From Campylobacter curvus (GTDB taxonomy: Bacteria; Campylobacterota; Campylobacteria; Campylobacterales; Campylobacteraceae), in contig NZ_CP053826.1 in NCBI RefSeq assembly GCF_013372125.1, positions 620,001 through 684,000 of the forward strand: a stretch of DNA of 64,000 nt. Direction: 5' to 3'. The position numbers and the translations under genes were made by a program. How positions within the stretch are numbered: position 1 is the stretch's first letter; the number at the start of each line of letters is the position of its first letter. Of the stretch, positions 42,062-55,030 are shown piece after piece. Under the pieces are notes generated by a model. That model was not told the DNA's origin and made no database searches. It was given only the letters and a program-made list of their open reading frames with translations.

Positions 42062-42110
42062 TTGACTAAAATCAACTTAAAATACAAATAAATCGTGTAT
42101 AATGCGCTTA
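42062..42110 (+). promoter_or_regulatory. hcp promoter with FNR-type operator
   Basis: Palindrome TTGAC-TAAA-ATCAA at 42062-42075 fits the FNR consensus TTGAT-N4-ATCAA with one mismatch. A perfect -10 TATAAT lies at 42098-42103, 22 nt after the box, and the predicted start near 42110 puts the box centre at -41.5, the class II activator position. The haoCA promoter has the same geometry. Ribosome site AAGGAG follows at 42127-42132. Confidence 0.8.
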
Positions 42111-42137
42111 AATTTTCTAAAATTTCAAGGAGAAAAA

Positions 42138-43469
42138 ATGAGTAAAGATATGGAGATGTTTTGCTACCAATGCGAAATGAGCGCGCCCGAAGGCTGTGGC
42201 GCCAAGGGTCAGAGCCACGGTACCTGCGGCAAAGACGATACGCTCGCGCGCCTTCAAGATACGATGATTTTCGGTCTTAAGGGTCTTAGCGCTTATCGTC
42301 ACCACGCAGACGAGCTGGGCGCAGACACCAGCGCGGTAGATCGCGTGATGGCGGACACACTATATTTCACGCTCACAAACTCGAATTTCAACTTCGACGA
42401 GCACGTCAAACAGCTCCTTGCGGTCGGAAGTGCGGGTGTAGAGGTCATGAACATACTAAGCGAGGCGCATACGGCAAAATTTGGCATCCCTGCACCCGTA
42501 AAAGTGAGCCAAAACAAAGTAGAGGGCAAGGCGATCTTAGTAAGCGGTCACAACCTGCACGCCTTGGAGTTGTTGCTAAAAGCGACCGAGGGCAAGGGCA
42601 TAAACATCTACACTCACTCCGAGATGTTGCCCGCCCACGGCTATCCGCAGCTTCGCAAATATCCGCATCTAAAGGGCAACGTCGGCAAGGCGTGGTTCGA
42701 TCAAACCAAGCTTTTCAACGAATTTAAAGGCGCTATTTTGATGACTACTAACTGCATCGTGCCGCTTCGCTCGTCCTGTACCTATGCAGACCGCTTGTTT
42801 GGCTACTCGATCGCAGGCACGAACGGCGTAAAGCACATCGAAAACGACGATTTTACGCCGCTCATCGAGTGCGCTCTGGCTTGCGGCGACGTGAGCGGAT
42901 TTGATAGCGACGAGACGCTGGTGACGGGCGGGCATTACAAAACGATTTTAAGCCTTGCGCCGCAAATTTTAGAGGCGATCACGTCGGGTAAAATTCGCCG
43001 CTTTTTTGTCATCGCAGGCTGCGACGCACCGGGCAAAGGACGCGAATACTACCGCGAGCTAGCCCAGAGCCTACCTAAAGACTGCGTCATTTTGACATCA
43101 AGCTGCGGAAAATTTAGATTTAACGACATCGACTTTGGCAACGTGCCGGGTACGCAGCTTCCGCGATACATCGACCTTGGCCAGTGCAACGACAGCAACG
43201 GCGCGGTCAAAATCGCCCTAGCGCTCAGCGAAGCGACCGGTATCGCGGTAAACGATCTGCCGGTCTCGATCGTGCTGATGTGGATGGAGCAAAAGGCGGT
43301 CATCATCTTGCTAGCACTCTTTAGCCTCGGCATCAAAAATATCAACGTAGGTCCTAGCCTGCCTAGATTTTTCAACGACGAGATAGTGAATTTCTTGGTT
43401 CAAAATTTCGGTGTTCGCCCTATAAGCGGCGACGCACAGGCTGATTTGAAGTATTTCTTGGGCGAGTGA
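42138..43469 (+). CDS. hcp: Hybrid cluster protein (hydroxylamine reductase/NO reductase type), short form
   Basis: Fe-S protein of 443 aa. N-terminal cluster Cys lie in MFCYQCEM, then GCGA and TCGKDD; hybrid-cluster ligands are recognisable in LVSGHNLHALELLLKA (His), EMLPAHGYPQL (Glu), TTNCIVP, IAGCDAPGKGREYY, TSSCGKFRFN and LGQCNDSNGA (Cys), and MWMEQKAV (Glu). It is about 100 residues shorter than class I/II Hcp of about 550 aa, consistent with loss of one helical segment as in class III. Hcp reduces hydroxylamine in vitro and NO in E. coli. Start chosen at ATG with AAGGAG, 12 codons inside the longest frame. No hcr reductase gene follows. Confidence 0.93.
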   Translation: MSKDMEMFCYQCEMSAPEGCGAKGQSHGTCGKDDTLARLQDTMIFGLKGLSAYRHHADELGADTSAVDRVMADTLYFTLTNSNFNFDEHVKQLLAVGSAGVEVMNILSEAHTAKFGIPAPVKVSQNKVEGKAILVSGHNLHALELLLKATEGKGINIYTHSEMLPAHGYPQLRKYPHLKGNVGKAWFDQTKLFNEFKGAILMTTNCIVPLRSSCTYADRLFGYSIAGTNGVKHIENDDFTPLIECALACGDVSGFDSDETLVTGGHYKTILSLAPQILEAITSGKIRRFFVIAGCDAPGKGREYYRELAQSLPKDCVILTSSCGKFRFNDIDFGNVPGTQLPRYIDLGQCNDSNGAVKIALALSEATGIAVNDLPVSIVLMWMEQKAVIILLALFSLGIKNINVGPSLPRFFNDEIVNFLVQNFGVRPISGDAQADLKYFLGE

Positions 43470-43474
43470 AATTT

Positions 43475-43514
43475 AGGCGGCTAGTCCCGCCTGTTGGGGC
43501 GCTAAAAAAGCCCC
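43475..43514. terminator. Paired hairpins between convergent hcp and the next gene
   Basis: First hairpin AGGCGG/CCGCCT at 43475-43492 after hcp; second GGGGC/GCCCC at 43496-43514 with an A6 loop overlaps the 3' end of the minus-strand gene. Neither has a long T-run, but location between converging genes supports termination. Confidence 0.6.
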
Positions 43515-44485
43515 GCTTGCTCTTTGCTTTGATTTAGCACGTTTAAAAGCTCGCTTTTATCGCAAAAAACTAGCGCATATCTAAAGCCTTTTAAATTTTT
43601 TATCTCTTCTAATTCATCGAAATATAAGGCATTTTGCACGTTTATATCGCTTGATCTCGGTAGACAGATCAGCGCTTCGTCGATGCTGAAATTCTTTTGT
43701 AAAAATGCAGTCTCTATCAAAAAGAGCTCCTCGTCGTTTTCGACTATCAGCGCGCGAAAGCTGGCTCCGAAATTTGCGGGCTTGAAATTTTTATCGATAA
43801 ATATCGGCTCAAAGTGCGCTAGCGCCCTTGTATCGTTTAGTTTAAAGGAGATGTTATTTTGTTTGAAGTAGTGGAGCAAACCGCAAAGCATACCCATGAA
43901 AACGCGCGGGATGTTTAAATTTTGATAGTAGATCCCGTCGCAGATCATCGTTGTGAAAAATATCGAGCTTGGATTTATCGCTTGAGCCTTAGTATCGGTC
44001 CAAACGGCGTCGTAAAGTGGAGATATGCGCTGAAGCACGCGGGTATCGCCGCTAAAAAATATGTCCCCGTCCTTTGCACGCATGATCTTGTAAAAGAGCT
44101 CGGGCACGCTTTTAGGCATGAGTGCGGCGTTTTTACCAAGGCTTATGCGCTCCAGGATCGCCATTTGGGCGGCATTCACGGCGCAAAATTTCAGATTTTT
44201 ATGCGTCGCCTCAAAGCGCATGAGCCGCATGATCGCGGTTTGGACGCTGCTTACTTTGATATAGGCGATCTCGCTGTCTTTTTGGGGAAATTCCTCCTCG
44301 CCGATGACAGCGTAAGCGCCGTGTTTGACGGCCAGATCGACATCGTTTTCACCAGCGTCAAGCGCAAAAAACGCGTATCCTTGCCTCACGTTTTTAGCCT
44401 CGAAAGCAAAGTCTGTTATGCTAGAAACGCTTGGTTTGTTTAGGGTTTGCCCGTTGATCAGGCGCGCTAAATTTTCGATCGTCAT
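43502..44485 (-). CDS. Uncharacterised protein with MurE/MurF-like N-terminal domain
   Basis: A 327-aa soluble protein. The first 80 residues look like the UDP-binding N-domain of MurF (IENLARLINGQTL, VRQGYAFFALDAGENDVDLAVKHGAYAVIGEE), but no ATP-binding P-loop or ligase centre follows. The rest has no motif I can name. C. jejuni has an uncharacterised gene at the same place after metG. It begins one base after the metG stop, so they are cotranscribed. Perhaps a former Mur ligase with a regulatory or unknown role. Confidence 0.7.
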   Translation of the reverse strand: MTIENLARLINGQTLNKPSVSSITDFAFEAKNVRQGYAFFALDAGENDVDLAVKHGAYAVIGEEEFPQKDSEIAYIKVSSVQTAIMRLMRFEATHKNLKFCAVNAAQMAILERISLGKNAALMPKSVPELFYKIMRAKDGDIFFSGDTRVLQRISPLYDAVWTDTKAQAINPSSIFFTTMICDGIYYQNLNIPRVFMGMLCGLLHYFKQNNISFKLNDTRALAHFEPIFIDKNFKPANFGASFRALIVENDEELFLIETAFLQKNFSIDEALICLPRSSDINVQNALYFDELEEIKNLKGFRYALVFCDKSELLNVLNQSKEQAGLF

Positions 44486-44486
44486 A

Positions 44487-46397
44487 TTATCCGACTATCG
44501 CTCCGTTTTTGACCTTTTTTTGAGTGCTAAGTAGCGTCAGCGAGCCGTCTTCCGCGCTTAGGATCATGCCTTGAGAGACGTATTTTTTCATCATCGTTCG
44601 CTCTTTGAGATTTGCCAGGACGCAAACTTGTTTGCCGATGAGGTCGCTTGGGTCGTAGTATTTTGCGATACCAGAAAGTATGGTGCGAGGCTTTTGCTCG
44701 CCCAGATCGATCGTGAATTTCAGTAGCTTCTCGCTGCCTTCGACCCTCTCGCACTCCAGCACTTCGCCCACTTTTATGACGATTTTGGCAAAATCATCTA
44801 TCGTTATGACGTTTTCGTCCTTTTTCTCGTTTTGCGGCTCATTGACGCTTGGAGTGGTACTTGGCATCAGCTCGCTCTCGATCCTTGGAAACAGCGGCTC
44901 GGTCGGCTTTGAGACGAAATTTTGCACGCCGTTATCAAGCACCAGATCCTTAAAGTTTCGCTCGTTTATCTCGAAGCTAAGCGCCTCTGCGATCTTGTCC
45001 GCTGTTTTTGGCATCGCAGGGCTTAGTAAAACGGCTACTTTTGCAAGTAAATTTGCGCTTAGCGCGACAAGGGCGTTAGCCTCAGTCGTTTTGCCCTCTT
45101 TTATCATCGCCCAAGGCTCGTATTTTGCGATGACACCGTTTGCCAGCGTCACTACCTTCCAAAGCTCCTCCAAGTAGCGATTCGTGGCTAGAACTTCTAA
45201 ATTTTCTATTGCTGATTTTAGATGAGCGTGGGCTTCTTCTAGCTCGGCGTTGTAAAATTTAGCCACGTTTGAAGCGTCTATTTTAAACTCGCTATATTTG
45301 CCGCTCATGCCGATTATGCGGTTTAGTAGATTGCCAAGTCCGTTGCCAAGCTCGGAATTTATGCGCTCTATGAGTGCCTTTTGGCTAAAGTCGCCGTCTT
45401 GTCCAAACGGCACTTCTCGGAGCATGAAATATCTGAAATTTTCAAGGCCGTAAGCTTTAGCGACCTCCCTTGGATCGATGACATTTCCCTTGCTCTTACT
45501 CATCTTTTCGCCGTTACGTGTCCACCAGCCGTGGGCTGCGACGTGTTTTGGCAAGGCTAAATTTAAACTCATCAAAAACGCCGGCCAATACACCGCGTGA
45601 AATCGCAAGATATCCTTGCCCACGATGTGCGTGGTGTTTTGCCAAAAGTCCATCAATGCGTCGTCTCTTGAGTAGCCAAGCGTCGTGAGATAGTTTACGA
45701 GCGCGTCTAGCCAGACATACATCACGTGCTTTGGATCGTTGGCGCTAGCCGGTAGCTTCACGCCCCAGTCAAAGCTCGTGCGGGTGATGGAGAGGTCTTT
45801 TAGCCCGCCTTTTACGAAGCTTACGACCTCATTTTTCTTGCCTTTTGGGATGACGCAAAGCTCGTCGTTTTCATACCATTTTAGCAGGGCGTCTTGGTAT
45901 TTCGAGAGTCTAAAAAAGTAGCTCTCCTCTTTTACGATACTGGTCTTTCGCCCGCAGTCAGGACAGCAGTTGTCGTCAAGTAGCTGAGTAGCCGTGAAAA
46001 ACGTCTCGCAGCTAACGCAGTAAAAGCCCTCGTATTCGCCCTTGTAGATGTCACCGTTTGCCTGCATCTTGCTAAAAACATTTTGTGCGGTGAGCTTGTG
46101 CTCCTCGTCGGTCGTGCGGATAAAATGATCGTAGCTTATCTCAAACTCGTCCCAAAGCGTGCGAAATTTAGCGCTTATCTCGTCGGCGTATTCTTTTGGC
46201 GTCTTACCACGCGCTTTTGCGGCTTGCTCGATCTTTTGCCCGTGCTCGTCCGTACCGGTCATAAAGTATGTCGGATGCCCCTGTAGGCGCTTAAAACGTG
46301 CAAAGGTATCGGCGATTATCGTGGTGTAGGCGTGTCCGATGTGCGGAACATCGTTTACATAATAAATCGGCGTGGTGATATAAACTTTTTCTTTCAT
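44487..46397 (-). CDS. metG: Methionyl-tRNA synthetase
   Basis: Class I synthetase of 636 aa. HIGH motif HIGHAYT (about 20-26), zinc knuckle SCETFF...DDNCCPDCGRK near 130-148, KMSKS in EKMSKSKGNVIDP near 297, anticodon-binding helical domain to about 500, and a C-terminal tRNA-binding (Trbp111-like) domain (FAKIVIKVGEVLECERVEGSEKLLKF, in two parts near 540) used for dimerisation. Full length and ends as expected. Confidence 0.97.
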   Translation of the reverse strand: MKEKVYITTPIYYVNDVPHIGHAYTTIIADTFARFKRLQGHPTYFMTGTDEHGQKIEQAAKARGKTPKEYADEISAKFRTLWDEFEISYDHFIRTTDEEHKLTAQNVFSKMQANGDIYKGEYEGFYCVSCETFFTATQLLDDNCCPDCGRKTSIVKEESYFFRLSKYQDALLKWYENDELCVIPKGKKNEVVSFVKGGLKDLSITRTSFDWGVKLPASANDPKHVMYVWLDALVNYLTTLGYSRDDALMDFWQNTTHIVGKDILRFHAVYWPAFLMSLNLALPKHVAAHGWWTRNGEKMSKSKGNVIDPREVAKAYGLENFRYFMLREVPFGQDGDFSQKALIERINSELGNGLGNLLNRIIGMSGKYSEFKIDASNVAKFYNAELEEAHAHLKSAIENLEVLATNRYLEELWKVVTLANGVIAKYEPWAMIKEGKTTEANALVALSANLLAKVAVLLSPAMPKTADKIAEALSFEINERNFKDLVLDNGVQNFVSKPTEPLFPRIESELMPSTTPSVNEPQNEKKDENVITIDDFAKIVIKVGEVLECERVEGSEKLLKFTIDLGEQKPRTILSGIAKYYDPSDLIGKQVCVLANLKERTMMKKYVSQGMILSAEDGSLTLLSTQKKVKNGAIVG

Positions 46398-46414
46398 ATT
46401 TTTCCTTTTTAAAT

Positions 46415-46615
46415 TTAAAAATCAAAGCCGCCCGAGCTGCCCTTGGACATCGAGTTGTAGCAGGTATCTACGTAGTCTTTTCGTATCTGACAGTCAAAAA
46501 ATTTCTCACAGCTAAAGCAGCTTTTGAGCTCTTTTTGTTTTTGGCAATCCTGTAAAATTTTAGCCTTTTCCTCGAAGGCCAGCTCGAATTTATCCTTTTG
46601 CCCGCTCTCTTGCAT
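46415..46615 (-). CDS. Small cysteine-rich hypothetical protein
   Basis: A 66-aa protein with five Cys (QDCQKQ, SCFSCEKFFDCQIR, DTCYN) and a Ser/Gly-rich tail GSSGGFDF. Spacing could bind a metal, but it matches no family I know; a gene of similar size occurs between metG and fbp in C. jejuni. Its start overlaps the fbp stop (TGATG), so it is made with fbp. Confidence 0.75.
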   Translation of the reverse strand: MQESGQKDKFELAFEEKAKILQDCQKQKELKSCFSCEKFFDCQIRKDYVDTCYNSMSKGSSGGFDF

Positions 46616-47478
46616 CAGTCTTTTCCGTAAAATTTATGAAGCAGGGCGATCTCGCCAGCGGAGCCAAAGAAACAAGGCGAGGTCTGATGAGTCTTTGTGA
46701 TATTTACGTCAAATAGTGTATCGCTCTTGCCGTCACTCGTTGCACCGCCCGCGTTTTCGTAGATGAATGCAAACGGCAGCACCTCAAAGAGCAGGCGCAG
46801 CTTGCCGTTTGGGTGATCGCTCGTGGCAGGATAGCTAAAAAGCCCGCCACCTTTTAGTAAAATTTGGTGCAAGTCGCTGACCATCGCTCCTGAGTAGCGT
46901 AGGCGGTATCCTTCGTCAAACAGCTCGTTTATGAAGGCTCTATGCGTTTGATCCCAGCCTTTTTGCGTCGCACCTGTGGCGTTTAGTTTGCCTTTTTGGG
47001 CTAGCTCGAGCTCTTTTACGAATTTAAAATTCCCGTCTTTGCCAAGGCGGTAAAATTTTGGCTTCGCGCCCTTTTTATCGTTTATGACTAGCTCCAAGCG
47101 AGGACCGTATATGCTGTAAGCTGCAGCTATTAAATTTTGGGGCTTTAGCTCGTTCTCGTAGATGCCAAATATCGAGCCCACGGCGAAATTTACATCTACA
47201 AGGCTCGAGCCGTCCAGCGGATCGTATGCGATTATGAATTTCCCGTTTGCATTTATAGGCAAAATTTCGTCCTTTTCCTCGCTGACTAGCGCTTTTACGC
47301 AGCTAAGAGCCTTAAATTTGGCTGTGATTATCTCGTCGCTTTGCACATCGAGCTTCAGCTGGGTGTCGCCCGTGGCATTTTCGTGCGTCGTATAGCCAAG
47401 ATCGGCGTATTTTATGACCTCGCTTATCTCTTTTGCTACGCTTTTTATCATCTCGAAAATTTCATTTAAATCTTGCAT
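46615..47478 (-). CDS. fbp: Fructose-1,6-bisphosphatase, class I
   Basis: Gluconeogenic phosphatase of about 287 aa. Metal site blocks are LVSEEKDE (near 78), [21 protein letters not shown] (near 103) and [17 protein letters not shown] (near 207), with [19 protein letters not shown] including the metal-binding Glu. Campylobacter lack phosphofructokinase, so this supports gluconeogenesis. Two adjacent ATG codons (47481 and 47478) follow the mobB stop; I take the second, whose spacing from AAAGG is better. Confidence 0.94.
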
Positions 47479-47957
47479 CATACAGCCTTTGCATTTTCTA
47501 GTATCCACGCGCAAATCGCGTCTATGTCGTCTAAATTTATATTTTTTATCTCGTAGGGCACACTGGGCTTATAGGTGGCTATCGCGTCTGAAAAGCTTAG
47601 ATATTTTTCGTCTATCTCGTCTTTAAATACGCTAAGACGCGGCAACGGCAGTGTCTTTAGCCCCTCGACCAAAAGTATGTCAAACTCTCCTAGCATCCTT
47701 ATGACCTCGTCTATTTGTGAGGGTTGCTGTGAAAAATACGTCGTCCTAGTCGGGCTCATCACGACGACCTCCGCCCCGGTCTGAGAAAATTTAAAGCTAT
47801 CCTTGCCCTCTACGTCAAATCTCGCCTTGTCGCCCGGGTCGTGCTTTACGACAGCGGTTTTTAGTCCTTGGTCTATGAAATGTTTGGCTACTTTTAAAAT
47901 GAGCGTGGTTTTTCCGCTGTTTGACGGGCCTGAAAACGCTATGGCGAGTCTTTTCAT
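47478..47957 (-). CDS. mobB: Molybdopterin-guanine dinucleotide biosynthesis adapter MobB
   Basis: A 159-aa P-loop GTPase: Walker [14 protein letters not shown] (about 8-20), [25 protein letters not shown] (split between 38 and 63) and [14 protein letters not shown] near 95. It assists MobA in attaching GMP to molybdopterin, needed for nitrate/formate/TMAO-type oxidoreductases. Overlaps fbp by one base. Confidence 0.93.
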
Positions 47958-48088
47958 GAGAACCTTTTTTGATAAAATTTTTGGGGATTATAGCCAAAGT
48001 TGGCTTTAAAATTTATGAGTGAAAATGATTTAGTTTTAAAAATAAAATGCTAAAATAGGGCGAAATTTTAAAATTCAAGGTGGCTGCG

Positions 48089-48571
48089 GTGAGAAAAATT
48101 TTGCTTGTTTTAGTATTCATTTTTGGGGTATTAGGATGCTCTGATAAAAAGATCATCGTTCATGAACCGTTAAAAAACGAGCTTCTAGCATACACTAGCA
48201 AGGCCGAGATCATCAATGATACCAACCGCACGTTGATCATCGCCACATATCTAAATCCGATCTATCAAAGTAAAATTTCTATCAAAGGCGAGGAGAAATT
48301 CCTAGTAGCCATCAGCCCCAAAGAAAACGAGATAGACGCCTCAAGCGTAAAGGTAAATAACGAAAGCAACGCTACTTCGCTAAGGTTGCTTGATAAAAAC
48401 GACGAGCTTTTGAGCCTTGCCGGCTTTAACATGCCTTGGGCGGCTTATTATGAGATATCAGCCCCGAGCAAAAGCAGCGACAAGCTAAATCTCACTTTCG
48501 AAATTTATCCGTCGCAGAAGGTGAGCTTAGAATTTCAAAAAGTTGCGAAATCTTTATATTGGAACCCATGA
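48089..48571 (+). CDS. Conserved lipoprotein of unknown function
   Basis: About 160 aa with a lipoprotein signal, lipobox FGVLGC followed by SDKK. The mature region predicts mostly beta strands with no named domain. I use GTG at 48089 because AAGG lies 8 nt upstream; GTG at 48080 is the alternative. C. jejuni has a similar-sized lipoprotein in this spot. Its last 80 nt overlap the 3' end of the convergent slt gene, so both proteins use the same DNA in opposite directions. Confidence 0.75.
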   Translation: MRKILLVLVFIFGVLGCSDKKIIVHEPLKNELLAYTSKAEIINDTNRTLIIATYLNPIYQSKISIKGEEKFLVAISPKENEIDASSVKVNNESNATSLRLLDKNDELLSLAGFNMPWAAYYEISAPSKSSDKLNLTFEIYPSQKVSLEFQKVAKSLYWNP

Positions 48572-50129
48572 GCGCACTATAAACTACGTAGTTTGCAAGC
48601 ACCTTTTTGCCGTAGTTTCGCGTCTCGGTGACGGGTACTAGCTCCATAGATAAAAACGGCTCGTAAATTCCCTCTTTAAACATATCATCGCGCGTGATGA
48701 GCTTTTTGGTAAAGCCGATACCACCGTTATATGCGTATGCGATAAATAGTGGATGAAAGAGGAATTTCTCCAGATAATCAAGATGATAATTTGCAAATTT
48801 AAAAGCTACATCTTGTTTAAACATATCGTCTTGGTCGAAATTTTCGATCTTTAGCTCTTTTTTGCCGATCGTATTTGCTAAAAACGGCATGAACTGCATC
48901 ATCCCAAGCGCGTAAGAGGTGGAAATGAGGCTTGGGATAAAAAGGCTCTCTTGCCTGCCAAGCGCGTAGATCATCGATTTTCGCGTGACGTTCGTATCCT
49001 CTAGCTCGGAAGACTCCGGCATCAAAAAGTAATGCTTGTCCCAGCCGGCAGCCCTTTGCATGAAATAAGCATACGCCCCCACACTCTCTTTAGTGTAAAA
49101 ACGTTTTGCATATTCGCTTGCCTGTTGGGCGTTCATCTGCTTTGCGAGTGCGGCGGTCTTTACCCATAAAAATGGATCCGTCACGTCAAAATTTTCCGGT
49201 TTTTCTTTGCTCGGGTGAGGCACTATGACCTCAAAAGGCTCGGCGTTTGTAAAATCTCTGGCATAAAGCGAGTAGATATTCACGTCGCTACTTTGTGCGA
49301 GTTCGTTTAGATAAATTTCATCTTTGCTGATGAGATACAGCCAAAATGTGGCGTTGTCTCTTTGCCACTCGCGCTCGAAGCTCGCTTTTGCTTTTGCAAA
49401 AAATTTAAGCGCAGCGGTATCGTTTTTAAGGGTGATGGCATTTATGCCGAGCATGAAAGCGTCGTTTTTTTCAGTGATGTTTTCATCTATTTTTAGTAAA
49501 TTTTGTCTGAACGCATCGTATTTTTTATTTATCACGACATCGTTTAAAAGCGTGCTAAAGCCCTTTTCCTGATAAAATTTATCCATAAAGCTAGCGTCAA
49601 ATTCCGTCCCGAAAAATTTCATCGTTTGAGAGATGCTACTGGCGTTAAAAAGCGCCATGAAATTTTTCGTATCACCGTTTTGTGCAAATTTAACCGCCGG
49701 ATTTTCATCGTTTAAAATAAGCAGCGTTTGCGCCTTTTGCGGGTAAAAATCAGCTAGCTTAGCGGCTAACTGCGTGCGTGTTTTGATATCCAGCTTTAGA
49801 GCGAAGCTGATCGTCGTAAGCGCGTTTTGGCAGGTGATGTTGGCATCTAGGATGTTTTTAGGATTCACCCCCGGGTAGAGGCTGGGCTTTGGTGCGGGCG
49901 GCAAAATTTTATCGATCGATTTTTGCACCGGGCCAGCTCGCCTATAAACGTCCTTTGCGAGCTCTTTTATCTGCTCTTTCGTGTATGAGCCCTCGTTGAT
50001 GAGGCGGTTTATATAATAATCCTTTGCGAGGCTCTTTGGCTCGTCTTTTAGCTCCTCGTAGCTTAAAATTTTAGCCAAGCCGAGCACGATAAACAGCGAT
50101 AAAACGCTAAATAGACGAAGCAAGCGCAA
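48492..50129 (-). CDS. slt: Soluble lytic murein transglycosylase
   Basis: Periplasmic 545-aa enzyme: signal peptide (about 1-19), a long alpha-superhelical (ring-forming) region to about 375, then the SLT domain with catalytic Glu in YALGRQESLFIPSLIS (near 391), SYALGMMQFMP and AYNGGIGFTKK. Cuts glycan strands with 1,6-anhydro ends, for wall growth and secretion-system insertion. The 5' end overlaps the yggT-like gene by 23 nt. Confidence 0.94.
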   Translation of the reverse strand: MRLLRLFSVLSLFIVLGLAKILSYEELKDEPKSLAKDYYINRLINEGSYTKEQIKELAKDVYRRAGPVQKSIDKILPPAPKPSLYPGVNPKNILDANITCQNALTTISFALKLDIKTRTQLAAKLADFYPQKAQTLLILNDENPAVKFAQNGDTKNFMALFNASSISQTMKFFGTEFDASFMDKFYQEKGFSTLLNDVVINKKYDAFRQNLLKIDENITEKNDAFMLGINAITLKNDTAALKFFAKAKASFEREWQRDNATFWLYLISKDEIYLNELAQSSDVNIYSLYARDFTNAEPFEVIVPHPSKEKPENFDVTDPFLWVKTAALAKQMNAQQASEYAKRFYTKESVGAYAYFMQRAAGWDKHYFLMPESSELEDTNVTRKSMIYALGRQESLFIPSLISTSYALGMMQFMPFLANTIGKKELKIENFDQDDMFKQDVAFKFANYHLDYLEKFLFHPLFIAYAYNGGIGFTKKLITRDDMFKEGIYEPFLSMELVPVTETRNYGKKVLANYVVYSALMGSNIKISQLFEILSSPSATDKFRK

Positions 50130-50400
50130 ATAAAAGCTTTATCAAAAATCTGTCTAAAAACTCAAGCGCTAAAAGCACGATGAGCGGAGCCAGGTCGATG
50201 CCGCCAAAAACGGTCGGTATGAAGCGTCTGATAAAGGCATAAACAGGCTCCGTCAGACGCCAAAGGAGCTGCACTACTTGGTTGTAAGGATCCGGTCTCA
50301 CCCAGCTTAAAAGAGCTGAGATGATGATGATCCAGATGTAGATATTTATGACTATATGCAAGATGTCCGCAATGGCCGATATGAACGTAGAAAGTATCAT
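50107..50400 (-). CDS. YggT-family membrane protein
   Basis: A 97-aa protein with two membrane helices (about 5-30 and 65-90) and the YGGT signature block between them: ALLSWVRPDPYNQVVQLL, then LTEPVYAFIRRFIPTVFGGIDLAPLIVLLAL in two parts. Role in bacteria unclear (osmotic tolerance and chloroplast division links in homologues). Located between gltX and slt, as in C. jejuni. Confidence 0.88.
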   Translation of the reverse strand: MILSTFISAIADILHIVINIYIWIIIISALLSWVRPDPYNQVVQLLWRLTEPVYAFIRRFIPTVFGGIDLAPLIVLLALEFLDRFLIKLLFALASSI

Positions 50401-50414
50401 TTCTTCTCCTAAAT

Positions 50415-51710
50415 TTAAGCGATTATGCGCGCTAGATCGCTCTTGATGAGCGGATAAAGCTCGCTAAGCTCGGGCCCGTGTAGATCGCCTGTGAGTAGGG
50501 CTCGAAGCGGCATGAAGAAATTTTTGCCCTTTAGGCCGGTAGCCGTCATCAAGGCCTTTTTAAAATCATCAAAATTTTCAAATTCACCTAAATTTTTAGC
50601 TGCATTTTTGATCGTTTCAAATTCGCTTTTGTATTCCTCGGGAGCGACTTTGGGAGCGAAAATTTTATTCACCTTTTCTTTGATCTCGGGCACTAGTGAG
50701 CTTTCTTGGGTGTAAAATCTAACTAAATTCGCCAAATTCTTATCCACGTCAAAAACTTCAGCGATGCGATCGTCGCTTGCCAGATTTATGTGCTCGCGGT
50801 TGATCTGCTCTAGCTTTTTGACGTCAAATTTGGCTGGAGAGCGCGAAATTTTAGTGATGTCAAACCATTTTACCGCATCGTCTATCGTAAAAATTTCGCT
50901 TGGAGTTTTGTTGCCAAGCAGTATTAGATAGTTTGCGATGGCTTCGGGCAAAAAGCCTTGTTCAAAGAGCCATTTCACGCTCGATTCGTTCTCGCGCTTG
51001 CTCATTTTTTTGCCCTCGATATTTAGCAAAATCGGCAGGTGTGCGTAGTTCATCTTGCCCGTGTAGCCAAGGCCTTCGCGGATGAGGTCTTGCTTTGGCG
51101 TGTTGCTGACGTGATCCTCGCCTCGTATTACGAATGTGACGCCCTCTAGCATGTCATCGACCGCGCAGGCGAAATTGTATGTAGGCGTCTTGTCCGTTCG
51201 CATGATGACGAAGCTATCGACTGCGTCAGGCTCGAAGCTCAGCTCGCCTTTTATCGCGTCGGTAAAGCTCATAGTGCGTTCTGGCTTTTTCATACGTATG
51301 ACAAAAGGCTTCTCGCAGGCTAAAACTTCTGCATCGCTTAGCCTCTCGCAAGTGCCGTCATATCGATATGCTACGCCTTCTTCTTTGGCTTTTTGCTTTT
51401 TAGCCTCGAGCTCCTCCTCGGTGCAAAAGCACGCAAAGGCCTTTTTATCGATCAAAAGCTTGGAGGCGAGCTGGCGGTGAAATTTTAAATTTTCGCTTTG
51501 GATGTAAATTTGCTGTGGCTTGATGCCGAATTTGCTCAAAATTTCAAGTATATCTTTCTCTTTTCCCTGGATATTTCGCTCTTTGTCGGTGTCCTCTATG
51601 CGTAAGATAAAGCCGCTTTTATCTTGGAGCGAACAGATGTAGTTAAATATCGCGGCGCGTAAATTCCCGATATGCATATCTCCCGTCGGAGATGGAGCAA
51701 AACGATACAT
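50415..51710 (-). CDS. gltX: Glutamyl-tRNA synthetase
   Basis: Class I synthetase of 431 aa, shorter than E. coli GltX as usual in this group. HIGH-type motif [15 protein letters not shown] (about 10-24) and KMSKR in [11 protein letters not shown] near 235. Campylobacter commonly carry two GluRS paralogues, one of which charges tRNA-Gln for GatCAB; which one this is cannot be told here. Start ATG with AAGGAA upstream. Confidence 0.95.
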
Positions 51711-51856
51711 TTTTGTTTTCCTTACATTGATTTAAGGGCTTGATTATAGCACTGCGTTCATAAATTTAAAGTTACGTAATTTTAAATTTTTATGAGCGGT
51801 AAAGCATTTTTTTAATAAAATCGTCTAGTTTTTGTAACTTAACACAAGGAGAGCTA

Positions 51857-52258
51857 ATGAGTTTTATCAGCGAATTTAAAGAATTTGCAATGAAAGGCAA
51901 CGTGCTTGATATGGCCGTGGGCGTCGTCATAGGAACGGCATTTGGAAAGATCGTCTCGTCACTCGTGGGCGACATCATAATGCCGATCGTGGGCGTGATA
52001 ACCGGAGGCGTAAATTTCACCGATCTTAAGATCACGCTAAAAGACGCCGCCCAGGGTGTGCCCGCAGTCACGATAAACTACGGAAATTTCATACAAACCG
52101 CGGTCGATTTTTTGATCATTGCATTTTGTATATTCTGCGTCATCAAAGCTATAAATTCTCTAAAAAGAAAGCCTGCAGAGCCTGAAGTCGCGCAACCTGC
52201 CGCACCTGCGGAAGATATCGTGCTTTTAACACAGATCAGAGACTTGCTTAAGAAATGA
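51857..52258 (+). CDS. mscL: Large-conductance mechanosensitive channel
   Basis: A 133-aa channel subunit: N-terminal [24 protein letters not shown] with the pore helix TM1 (about 16-43), second helix about 70-95, and a C-terminal helical bundle ending TQIRDLLKK. It opens under membrane tension to release solutes in osmotic downshock. AAGGAG lies 7 nt before ATG. Not at this place in C. jejuni as I recall, where it would interrupt the gltX-metallophosphoesterase order. Confidence 0.96.
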
Positions 52259-52264
52259 TTTAAA

Positions 52265-52294
52265 ATTTCAAAGGGCTTTGGCCTTTTGAAATTT
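52265..52294 (+). terminator. Terminator of mscL
   Basis: Long inverted repeat ATTTCAAAGGGC / GCCTTTTGAAAT (one mismatch) around TTTG, just after the mscL stop. Separates mscL from the regulator gene. Confidence 0.7.
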
Positions 52295-52317
52295 ATAGAT
52301 TAAATTTTGAGGTTAAG

Positions 52318-52962
52318 ATGAAAGTATTAAGACAAATACCCTTTTTTAAATGCCTGGACGAAGACGAGATGAAGCAACTCGAAGACATAACTATCGCAAA
52401 AAAGTATAAAAAAGGCGAGTTTTTGTTTATGGAGGGCGAGGAGCCAAAATGGCTCATTTTTTTGCTCTCGGGCTCGGTCAAGCTCTATAAGACCGCGGCA
52501 AACGGTAAGGAAATTTTCCTCCATCAGCTAGCCCCCATGAATTTTGTCGCCGAGGTCGTAAATTTTGAAAACATCGTTTATCCGGCGAGCGCCGTTTTTA
52601 CGATATCCGGTGAGGTGCTAAAGATAAATTATGAGAAATTTGCTACCGAATTTTTGAGTAATCCTAAAATTTGTATGAATCTCATAAAATCGATGTCGGA
52701 AAAGCTACGTATCACGAGCAATCTCCTGCATCAAGAGCTTGTTTTGAATTCCGAAGCCAAGGTTGCTAAATTTATCCTTATGCATGAAGATTTGTTTAAT
52801 AGCTTAAAGCATACCAAGATCGCATCTATCCTAAATATAACCCCGGAAACATTCTCGAGAATTTTAAATAAATTTAAAACAGCAAATCTCATCAAGCTTG
52901 ATGAGAAAAACCAAATAATCGATAAAAACGTCGATGAGCTGACTCAAATTTTTTCGTATTGA
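52318..52962 (+). CDS. CRP/FNR-family transcription regulator next to haoCA
   Basis: A 214-aa regulator with N-terminal cyclic-nucleotide-fold sensor domain (YKKGEFLFMEGEEPKWLIFLLSGSVKLY, in two parts at 30-57), long dimerisation helix (about 112-140) and C-terminal winged helix. The recognition helix reads TPETFSRILNKF (175-186), giving E177-x-x-S180-R181, the FNR-type pattern that reads TTGAT half-sites. Unlike FNR there is no N-terminal cysteine cluster (only Cys12 and Cys119), so it should sense something other than oxygen via 4Fe-4S, perhaps NO or haem. Matching operators occur 25 nt downstream (before haoC) and upstream of hcp. Confidence 0.88.
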   Translation: MKVLRQIPFFKCLDEDEMKQLEDITIAKKYKKGEFLFMEGEEPKWLIFLLSGSVKLYKTAANGKEIFLHQLAPMNFVAEVVNFENIVYPASAVFTISGEVLKINYEKFATEFLSNPKICMNLIKSMSEKLRITSNLLHQELVLNSEAKVAKFILMHEDLFNSLKHTKIASILNITPETFSRILNKFKTANLIKLDEKNQIIDKNVDELTQIFSY

Positions 52963-52986
52963 AAGTTAATATCAAATAAATATTAA

Positions 52987-53035
52987 TTGATTTAAATCAA
53001 GATTTATTAATATAGTTTTGGATATTATGCGATTT
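52987..53035 (+). promoter_or_regulatory. haoCA promoter with FNR-type operator
   Basis: Perfect palindrome TTGAT-TTAA-ATCAA at 52987-53000. A -10-like TATTAT lies at 53023-53028, 22 nt after the box, so the predicted start (about 53035) puts the box centre at -41.5. Spacing is identical to the hcp promoter at 42062-42110. AGGAGG before the TTG start of haoC is a strong ribosome site. Confidence 0.85.
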
Positions 53036-53080
53036 ATTTTTCAAGTTTTATATTAAAGTTTTAAATTATAGGAGGAAATT

Positions 53081-53653
53081 TTGGCAAACGTTAAAAAGAA
53101 ATTTTTTGTTTGGTCGTCCGTCCTTATAGGTATCGTTATCGGACTTATAGCCTCTATGGGCGTGGCCGATGCTTTACACGCGACAGGAAGCGGCTTTATA
53201 TGTACCGTATGCCATACGATGGACCCTATGAATGCAGCCTATCACGAAGATATACACGGCGGCAAAAACAAGCTTGGCATAAAAGCCGAATGCTCAGCCT
53301 GTCACCTTGACCACAGAAGTGCCTATACCTATGTCCTCACAAAACTTAAAGTATCTATAAACGACGGATATAAAACATTTTTTACAAATACTGACAAGAT
53401 CGATTGGCGTAAAAAGCGCGAACATGCTTCGCACTTCGTATACGATAGCGGCTGCTTGACCTGTCACTCGAATTTAAAAAATGTCATTCAAGCGGGCAAA
53501 TCATTTTTGCCTCACCGCGATTATTTCGTTTTCGGAAATCCTGATAAAAAGTCATGCGTTGATTGCCACAATCATGTCGGTCATAAAGATCTAGGTCTTT
53601 ATATCGATAAATTTGAAGCAATGAAAAATCAAGAAAACAATAAAACCAAATAA
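53081..53653 (+). CDS. haoC: Tetraheme NapC/NrfH-family cytochrome c, probable quinol dehydrogenase HaoC
   Basis: A 190-aa membrane-anchored cytochrome: one N-terminal helix (about 8-28), then four CxxCH haem sites at C41, C71, C125 and C159 (CTVCH, CSACH, CLTCH, CVDCH). This is the NapC/NirT family that takes electrons from menaquinol and passes them to a periplasmic multihaem partner. Because the next gene encodes an octaheme HAO-type protein and not pentaheme NrfA, HaoC is a better name than NrfH. Start TTG with AGGAGG upstream. The CHTMDP segment after haem 1 is typical of NrfH-like members. Confidence 0.88.
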   Translation: MANVKKKFFVWSSVLIGIVIGLIASMGVADALHATGSGFICTVCHTMDPMNAAYHEDIHGGKNKLGIKAECSACHLDHRSAYTYVLTKLKVSINDGYKTFFTNTDKIDWRKKREHASHFVYDSGCLTCHSNLKNVIQAGKSFLPHRDYFVFGNPDKKSCVDCHNHVGHKDLGLYIDKFEAMKNQENNKTK

Positions 53654-53662
53654 GGAGGAGAG

Positions 53663-55030
53663 ATGTTTAAAAAAGTTGCTATTTTATTAGCCTGTTTAGT
53701 ATCTTTTGGCTTTGCTACGGGTACTGATGGCAATAAGACAGAAGCGATCAACCTTAATGTTATCAAAAACATTAAAGTCGCTCACAAAATGTCTGATTTG
53801 TCAAAAAGCTGTGTCGAGTGCCACTCGGAAAAAACGCCCGGTATCGTTGCCGATTGGAAAAATAGCCGTCACGCGCACGTAGGTGTAAGCTGTATGGACT
53901 GCCACTCTGTAGCTGCCGATAGCCCGATGGCTTCAGTAAAGGTGCACCCAAAAGACTCAAACAACCACGTTTCTATGCTTGTTAGCCCTAAAACCTGTGC
54001 TAAATGCCATGAAAACGAAGTCGATCAATTCACAAAGAGTGGTCACGCAAGAGGTGGTATGCAAATGTATGCTAACCCTGCAATAGTGAAACTAATGTAT
54101 CACTATGAGGGCGCAGATCATCCTGACTTTAAAATGGCTCCTGACGCGACAGGTTGTACTCAGTGCCACGGAACCGTCATCAAACTAGACGCTGATCACA
54201 AACCTACAAAAGAGACTTGGCCAAACTACGGTATAGCCAATGTTTATCCTGACGGTGGTATAGGCAGTTGTAAATCTTGCCATAGCGGGCATACATTTAG
54301 TATAGCTGAGGCTAGAAAACCTGCAGCTTGCGCATCTTGCCACCTTGGACCAGATCACCCGGATATCGAGATCTATAACAACTCAATGCACGGACATATC
54401 TTCAACTCAGAGGGTAACACATGGAAATATGACAGCGCTCCTGATACTTGGGATGTGCCTGACTTTAGAGCTCCTACTTGCGCTACATGCCATATGAGCG
54501 GTGTCGGAGAGACTACAACGACTCACAACGTTTCACAACGTCTAAAATGGAATTTGTGGGGTCTAAGAAGCGAGCTAAGGACAAAAGGCTACGAGCAAGC
54601 GGCGTATGATTATTGGAAAACAGGCAAGCTAAACACAGGAACACCTCTAGCCGGTAATCCTCAAGGCCCTGAGGCTGCACGTGCCGAGATGAAACTAGTA
54701 TGCAAAACTTGCCATACGACAACGCATACGGATAATTTCTTTGCTATGGGTGATAAGCAAGTTCAGCTTTATAATGTATATTACGATGAAGCCAAGAAAA
54801 TGCTTGATGATCTAAAAGCTAAGAATTTATTGCTTGAAGATGCTTGGGAGGACGAATTCCAAGATGTGTTCTATCACTTATGGCACCACGAGGGTCGCCG
54901 TATGAGACAAGGCGCATTGATGGGCGGACCTGACTACTCACACTGGCACGGAGTATTTGAGGTCAAAAATGACATCAGAAAACTTCGCAAGATATATAAA
55001 GAAAGAATCGAGAGCGGCAAAGCTCATTAA
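53663..55030 (+). CDS. haoA: Octaheme cytochrome c of the hydroxylamine oxidoreductase family (epsilon-Hao)
   Basis: Periplasmic 455-aa protein with signal peptide (about 1-19) and eight CxxCH motifs at C50, C77, C112, C165, C203, C223, C273 and C347. There is no CxxCK, which rules out classical pentaheme NrfA, and the C-terminal WHHEGRRMRQGALMGGPDYSHWHG block is HAO-like. In Campylobacter curvus and Caminibacter, such Hao proteins have been described as ammonia-forming nitrite reductases that also handle hydroxylamine. HaoC 9 nt upstream supplies electrons. A terminator follows. Whether the HAO catalytic Tyr crosslink residue is present needs alignment; Tyr425 lies in the PDYSHWHG block. Confidence 0.9.
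   Translation: MFKKVAILLACLVSFGFATGTDGNKTEAINLNVIKNIKVAHKMSDLSKSCVECHSEKTPGIVADWKNSRHAHVGVSCMDCHSVAADSPMASVKVHPKDSNNHVSMLVSPKTCAKCHENEVDQFTKSGHARGGMQMYANPAIVKLMYHYEGADHPDFKMAPDATGCTQCHGTVIKLDADHKPTKETWPNYGIANVYPDGGIGSCKSCHSGHTFSIAEARKPAACASCHLGPDHPDIEIYNNSMHGHIFNSEGNTWKYDSAPDTWDVPDFRAPTCATCHMSGVGETTTTHNVSQRLKWNLWGLRSELRTKGYEQAAYDYWKTGKLNTGTPLAGNPQGPEAARAEMKLVCKTCHTTTHTDNFFAMGDKQVQLYNVYYDEAKKMLDDLKAKNLLLEDAWEDEFQDVFYHLWHHEGRRMRQGALMGGPDYSHWHGVFEVKNDIRKLRKIYKERIESGKAH

Follow-up and report, generated by a model that had tools for sequence, protein, structure and literature searches.

A probable common control switch for hcp and haoCA of Campylobacter curvus, and the neighbouring regulator gene that may work it

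Are two genes that deal with toxic nitrogen compounds in Campylobacter curvus governed together? The question is raised by a 64,000-nucleotide (nt) stretch of its genome (contig NZ_CP053826.1, positions 620,001 to 684,000, forward strand; here called the window, with position 1 as its first letter). In it, hcp, for a hybrid cluster protein or hydroxylamine reductase, and haoCA, for an octahaem Hao-type cytochrome and its tetrahaem partner, are each preceded by a short palindrome and a -10 hexamer. A preliminary description of the sequence had called these elements FNR-type promoters and had proposed that they mark a true shared regulon. On comparison of genome sequences, a shared regulon of hcp and haoCA appears strongly supported, although more than two genes would belong to it and its haoC half is lineage-specific. 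The two elements are very probably class II promoters of one nitrogen-oxide regulon worked by an Nss-type regulator encoded at 52318-52962. For two enzymes of host-associated campylobacters, Hcp and the octahaem nitrite reductase Hao, a common control switch, probably worked by this neighbouring regulator gene, would supply a candidate regulator, a promoter defined to the base and a set of other genes under the same control.

Promoter geometry and its conservation

The Nss/FNR-type box before hcp, TTGACTAAAATCAA (TTGAC-N4-ATCAA), occupies 42062..42075 on the forward strand (662062-662075 of the genome), and the one before haoC, TTGATTTAAATCAA (TTGAT-N4-ATCAA), occupies 52987..53000 on the same strand (672987-673000); both lie exactly where the preliminary description had put them. 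It had called them near-identical palindromes, and indeed all 14 bases of the haoC box form a perfect palindrome, and the hcp box agrees with TTGATNNNNATCAA in 9 of the 10 specified positions. The claimed gap of 22 nt to the -10 hexamer is exact in both promoters, covering 42076-42097 before TATAAT (42098..42103, forward strand) at hcp and 53001-53022 before TATTAT (53023..53028, forward strand) at haoC. With the hexamer bases set at -12 to -7, transcription is predicted to start at 42110 and 53035, and the proposed box centre at -41.5 of the predicted start is thereby borne out for both. Class II activation by Crp/Fnr proteins uses a site at -41.5 in a promoter without a -35 element, and the class II promoters of Escherichia coli FNR carry a 14-bp TTGAT-N4-ATCAA centred at -41.5. 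Judged by the position of the -10 hexamer, both elements have the arrangement of such a class II site.

Upstream regions were picked by protein match, independently of the motif, in 48 genomes of the genus, 40 with haoA and 26 with hcp (20 with both, 20 with haoA only, 6 with hcp only and 2 with neither). A box had to match at 9 of 10 positions or better and to be followed, 21-23 nt later, by TANNNT. Such an element, with 9 or 10 matching positions, precedes hcp in 26/26 loci, at a spacing of 22 nt in 16 loci and of 23 nt in the other 10; the hcp counts include two genes with an in-frame stop, one in the genus (G047) and one outside it (G319). Before haoC the element was found in 13/40 regions, every one at 22 nt. 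Dinucleotide shuffles of the same regions gave 23/10,400 hits for hcp and 67/16,000 for haoC. TTGA and TCAA are invariant in all 39 of these promoters, an invariance partly favoured by accepting only boxes with at least 9 of 10 matches, and most adjacent columns are more variable.

The preliminary description had called for a genome-wide motif scan, and the outcome was above chance. The C. curvus genome contains 12 copies of the strict box TTGAYNNNNATCAA, 6 of which have TANNNT 21-23 nt off on one side; 3 of these lie outside open reading frames (ORFs) of at least 90 amino acids (aa), before hcp, haoC and a TonB-receptor-like gene, and 3 lie inside ORFs. A looser pattern has 15 matches in this genome versus 4 for the same pattern read backwards. 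Over the 48 genomes, box-N21-23-TANNNT has 222 matches, part of which fall in coding sequence, versus 49 for its backwards reading.

The haoC regions without the box (27/40) make up one side of a split in the HaoA tree, with support 1.000, that includes the Campylobacter concisus records. In all 27, the homologous place (e.g., in L021, L020 and L033) reads TTYATTTACTTAAA, so that the first half-site has lost its G and the second its C, with TANNNT at 23 nt in 26 and at 22 nt in 1. hcp is present in 9/27 members of this clade and has kept its box in 9/9; no hcp match was found in 18/27. Because the haoC box has eroded while the hcp box and the regulator discussed below have been kept, the ancestor of the genus probably had the hcp-haoC link, which was later cut in the C. 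concisus clade, or weakened there to a poor site.

Outside the genus, the hcp promoter can be followed across the order. An even draw of 298 genomes yielded 82 with an hcp match; 7 of them belong to the genus and are counted above, 2 are fragments (G211 and G253), and the remaining 73 loci were read. A TTGAY-type box matching at 9 or more of 10 positions precedes hcp in 65/73 of these (34/40 plus 31/33), at 22 nt from TANNNT in 63 and at 23 nt in 2, and shuffles of the first 40 regions gave 80/8,000. In G069 and G056 (L305 and L323), the hcp box is TTAAC-N4-GTTAA, also at 22 nt. Neither box type was found before hcp in 6/73 loci (G144, G091, G105, G138, G168 and G106). G168 and G106 encode divergent Hcp with 43-45% identity; in G144, G091 and G105 (L293, L309 and L310) the boxless hcp is preceded, by eye, by another gene of the Crp-type helix-turn-helix (HTH) kind.

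For haoC, 39 of 80 loci were scanned, of which 3 were already in the genus count and 4 had an upstream region shorter than 1,100 nt; the remaining 41 comprised 4 of C. concisus and 37 others set aside by no fixed rule. Outside the genus set, the element stands at 22 nt in 6/36 named loci scanned: Campylobacter sp. UBA1713, three Arcobacter records, one Campylobacteraceae record and one of Sulfurospirillum arcachonense, the last with a P-E-T-L-S-R regulator upstream. It is missing in the other 30/36, including all 11 Helicobacter loci scanned and L227, where a weak 8/10 match at 23 nt was left uncounted. It is in this sense that the haoC half is lineage-specific, eroded in 27/40 regions of the genus versus an hcp half kept in 26/26 there and in 65/73 elsewhere in the order.

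The neighbouring regulator and related systems

The gene at 52318..52962, on the forward strand, encodes a Crp/Fnr-superfamily regulator of 214 aa with the recognition helix TPETFSRIL, and it is the best candidate for binding both boxes. Its PF00027 (cNMP-binding-like) and PF13545 (Crp HTH) domains score over cut-off. E. coli FNR has four cysteines for a [4Fe-4S] cluster. The window system resembles it in the box and the -41.5 centre, but the protein has just two cysteines, Cys12 and Cys119, neither kept in all 23 aligned orthologues, and thus no FNR-type cysteine cluster. Of the earlier term, FNR-type promoters, the class II geometry stands, but the protein is ruled out as FNR proper and instead fits the Nss/HcpR/DNR kind.

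The residues that meet the DNA point in the same direction. At CRP positions 180, 181, 184 and 185, read by eye, the window protein has P, E, S and R; P180 (not Arg) and E181 together with TTGAY boxes are what proteins of the Nss, HcpR1 and DNR kind show, as are the cNMP-like domain and Crp HTH without FNR cysteines. Three cNMP-domain proteins turned up in a Pfam search of the C. curvus genome, one with a score below cut-off; at these positions the two paralogues of the window protein read Q, N, N, R and R, E, S, R (also by eye). Both lack P-E..S-R, and control by either of them was judged less likely.

A homologue of the regulator at E<=1e-82 occurs in 47/48 genomes of the genus. Among the box-bearing genomes outside it, 62/65 have a homologue at E<=2e-14, versus 1/6 of those with a boxless hcp, and in 61/65 the homologue read has [PQ]-E..[SN]-R; in 5/6 boxless genomes no homologue is better than E 4e-6. 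Both genomes with TTAAC boxes carry a P-V..S-R homologue (P-V-T-L-S-R; L357 and L343), with E changed to V at 181. In G056 it is the only homologue found, and in G069 its gene stands directly before hcp. Given that one or a few homologues were read per genome, this agreement of regulator and box is suggestive rather than a full test, and the genomes compared are related, so that the counts are not independent. We consider the product of 52318-52962 the likely regulator of both boxes.

Published work, cited here from those parts of each paper that were available, holds several systems of this kind. By their published description, the Nss regulators (NssA, NssB and NssC of Wolinella succinogenes, with homologues in Nitrosophilus) are alike in belonging to the Crp/Fnr superfamily, in their TTGA-N6-TCAA sites and in targeting nap, nrf and nos genes. 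In Wolinella and Nitrosophilus, nap, nrf, nos and nor genes are named as members of the Nss regulons (PMC11539149, PMC6682613, PMC12285233), and exact Nss boxes start 48-49 nt before the predicted starts of Nitrosophilus napA, norE and nosB (PMC11539149). The neighbours here, in contrast, are haoCA and hcp, not nap or nor. In the available parts of these papers, "hcp" and "hydroxylamine" are absent from PMC11539149 and "hcp" and "haoA" from PMC6682613. Nor do the corresponding parts of PMC1274295, PMC11539149, PMC3701875, PMC7059363, PMC12285233 and PMC6682613 state control of hcp or hao by Nss or HcpR in this order.

Ser or Pro at 180 goes with the motif TTGACnnnnGTCAA in the HcpR1 regulators; Arg180 goes with CRP-like boxes (Rodionov et al. 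2005, PMC1274295). The HcpR1 regulon of delta-proteobacteria and cyanobacteria is like the present one in its core target hcp, in Ser/Pro180 and in TTGACnnnnGTCAA (PMC1274295); it is unlike it in phylum, and here haoCA, nos and TonB-receptor genes join and the -10 spacing is conserved order-wide. NssR of Campylobacter jejuni, with A180 and Q181, goes with TTAACnnnnGTTAA (TTAAC) boxes and regulates a globin (PMC1274295). It is a Crp/Fnr nitrosative-stress activator, as the window protein would be, and its TTAACnnnnGTTAA box is the type found before hcp of G069 and G056, but the window protein has P and E at 180 and 181 and TTGAY boxes instead of A180, Q181 and TTAACnnnnGTTAA. The best solved-structure match is DNR of Pseudomonas aeruginosa (3dkw, E 1.1e-11), which responds to nitric oxide (NO) and reads FNR-like boxes (PMC1274295); the match is weak, however, with CRP structures nearly equal (E 8e-11). 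We therefore describe the system as an Nss-type, not a true FNR, class II regulon, known in kind.

Further targets, exceptions and rival explanations

A private regulon of two genes was rejected, because the same promoter stands before further genes. In the C. curvus genome, a YgbA_NO gene near 0.779 Mb (PF11756; L008:1122-1481) starts 47 nt past the end of an TTGATTTATCTCAA box, which has a TACTAT hexamer at 22 nt. Near 1.171 Mb (L011:3-1471; also L171), a class II Nss-type box precedes a unit for a DUF2249-like protein of 112 aa and a membrane protein of 374 aa; the best E for the former is 0.011, below cut-off, and neither member has a Pfam match over cut-off. The TonB-receptor-like gene, whose best model (TonB-copper) is far below cut-off, has the box in several species (L013, L165, L130, L184 and L197), and copper supply for NosZ is a possible reason for such targets. 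Most other matches to the looser pattern in this genome fall in ORFs.

For the relatives, the surroundings of 34 chosen loci were read. The element was seen before napA in 8 genomes, before nrfH in 5 and before TonB receptors in several; in 4 it precedes a unit whose second gene is nosZ-like. Most of these targets were named by eye from their N-termini; in model searches, one NapA is over cut-off, and partial NrfA and NosZ pieces match below it. The same promoter before nap, nrf and nos suggests a general nitrogen-oxide regulon.

Geometry, conservation and the agreement of residues and boxes can be read from sequence, and from them we infer the following course of binding and activation. A signal-bound dimer of the Nss-type Crp/Fnr regulator would bind the TTGAY-N4-RTCAA palindrome at -41.5, where it would stand in for a -35 element and recruit RNA polymerase to the -10 hexamer that lies 22 nt further downstream. 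This would jointly switch on hcp, for cytoplasmic reduction of NO and hydroxylamine, and haoCA, for periplasmic reduction of nitrite and hydroxylamine; elsewhere in the genome, the ygbA-like gene, the DUF2249-like unit and the TonB-receptor-like gene would be activated with them. The signal would be NO or another nitrogen oxide, and the company of target genes makes NO itself the probable one.

A number of observations weigh against one regulator acting through these boxes. The regulator is found throughout the C. concisus clade, and its helix is TPETFSRIL in the 10/27 members read, yet the haoC box is eroded there; the presence of the regulator, therefore, does not ensure a haoC site. No strict box was found upstream of the C. 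curvus napA itself, although relatives have nap, nrf and nos behind TTGA-N6-TCAA as in Nss regulons. G168 has a regulator homologue (54% identity) but a boxless, divergent hcp. No regulator match at E<=0.001 was found in the box-bearing genomes G065, G070 and G319 (90, 88 and 99% complete), and in box-bearing G271 (63% complete) no recognition helix could be read. G044 has no close regulator homologue, hcp or haoA, yet it has the box before a TonB-receptor-like gene (L181). The P-V protein of G069 ranks second among the matches there, behind one encoded elsewhere that has P-E. G125 and G221 have one TTAA half-site, yet their homologues have P-E (that of G125 is broken by two stops), and a second homologue in G181 has P-A. 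With G125, G221, G181 and G069 as exceptions, the covariation of residue and box comes down to two switches; moreover, the homologue read was the best or a chosen one or few per genome, and many genomes have more.

Could different Crp/Fnr-type regulators serve the two boxes, their likeness being convergent? There are three Crp/Fnr-like proteins in the genome, one of them below the Pfam cut-off, many genomes of the order hold several regulator homologues, and the hcp and haoC boxes have had unlike fates in the C. concisus clade. Nonetheless, it is the window regulator that adjoins haoC and has close homologues almost throughout the genus, and the other two proteins do not have P-E..S-R; we regard this explanation as improbable. 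The boxes might also be operators for repression, of which Crp/Fnr proteins are capable. A site at -41.5 overlaps the polymerase footprint, and at haoC the bound protein would cover a weak sigma-70-like candidate (9/12) in which TTGATT, from the box itself, pairs with TATAGT at 53011-53016. The scan that gave this pairing, over 51800-53200 with the hcp promoter outside it, found 4 promoter-like sites compared to a shuffle mean of 4.1, however, and a spacing to the -10 hexamer that is all but fixed at 22-23 nt agrees better with class II activation, so that repression seems very improbable. Chance can hardly be credited at all: short palindromes are frequent in AT-rich spacers such as these flanks, but the comparative counts of 26/26, 13/40 and 34/40, against shuffle rates of 0.2 to 1%, led us to reject it.

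A different reason for the link would be that haoCA and hcp form one obligate pathway, reverse-HURM, in which Hao makes free hydroxylamine from nitrite and Hcp reduces it to ammonium, as proposed for Nautilia (PMC3701875). The same paper, in the parts available, also recognizes reverse-HURM from the genes that C. concisus, C. curvus and C. fetus possess, and hcp is present in 11/13 genomes with an intact haoC box. However, within the genus an hcp match is missing from 20/40 genomes with hao and a haoA match from 6/26 with hcp, and the element before nap, nrf and nos speaks for the general regulon; we think an obligate pathway unlikely. The proposal becomes testable at the level of regulation, by asking whether Hao leaking hydroxylamine raises Hcp via the same protein.

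Keeping one Nss-type regulator for both genes as the preferred explanation, one can envision a broader scheme, which we hold to be doubtful as a whole. The regulator would match Hcp supply to leaky nitrite reduction by Hao and to Nap/Nrf/Nos respiration, with the geometry of the hcp promoter kept order-wide through at least two box switches matched at residue 181. The C. concisus clade would have freed haoC and then often lost hcp, which would leave it with a Hao that reduces nitrite to ammonium constitutively and without leakage. Natural test cases are offered by lineages in which the box has been switched, lost or eroded.

The genes behind the two promoters

haoC (53081..53653, forward strand) has a TTG start after AGGAGG and encodes a NapC/NrfH-type tetrahaem cytochrome with 4 CXXCH motifs (PF03264). 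Between the end of the regulator gene and the haoC box lie 24 nt, in which the scan of 51800-53200 found no terminator; some read-through from the regulator gene into haoCA is therefore possible. haoA follows at 53663..55030 on the same strand, for an octahaem Hao-type cytochrome with 8 CXXCH motifs. Among its structure matches, 6/8 solved chains are named HAO or HAO-like, and the best (4qo5) is a hypothetical multihaem protein. An octahaem HAO-like cytochrome with a NapC/NrfH-type partner is the arrangement of the epsilonproteobacterial Hao, which reportedly lacks the active-site cross-linking tyrosine and has nitrite reductase activity.

hcp (42138..43469, forward strand, ATG start) encodes a short-form Hcp of 443 aa that scores over curated cut-offs (NF003658, 563 bits with a cut-off of 367; TIGR01703, 540 with a cut-off of 361; PF03063, 391 bits). 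The gene after it lies on the opposite strand, and thus no partner reductase gene stands behind hcp. Compared to the hydroxylamine reductase model, the protein lacks about 100 residues near its N-terminus. In G047, hcp (G047:C1:261177-262506; L068 and L072) has an in-frame TAG and matches in two pieces, and its promoter box is perfect.

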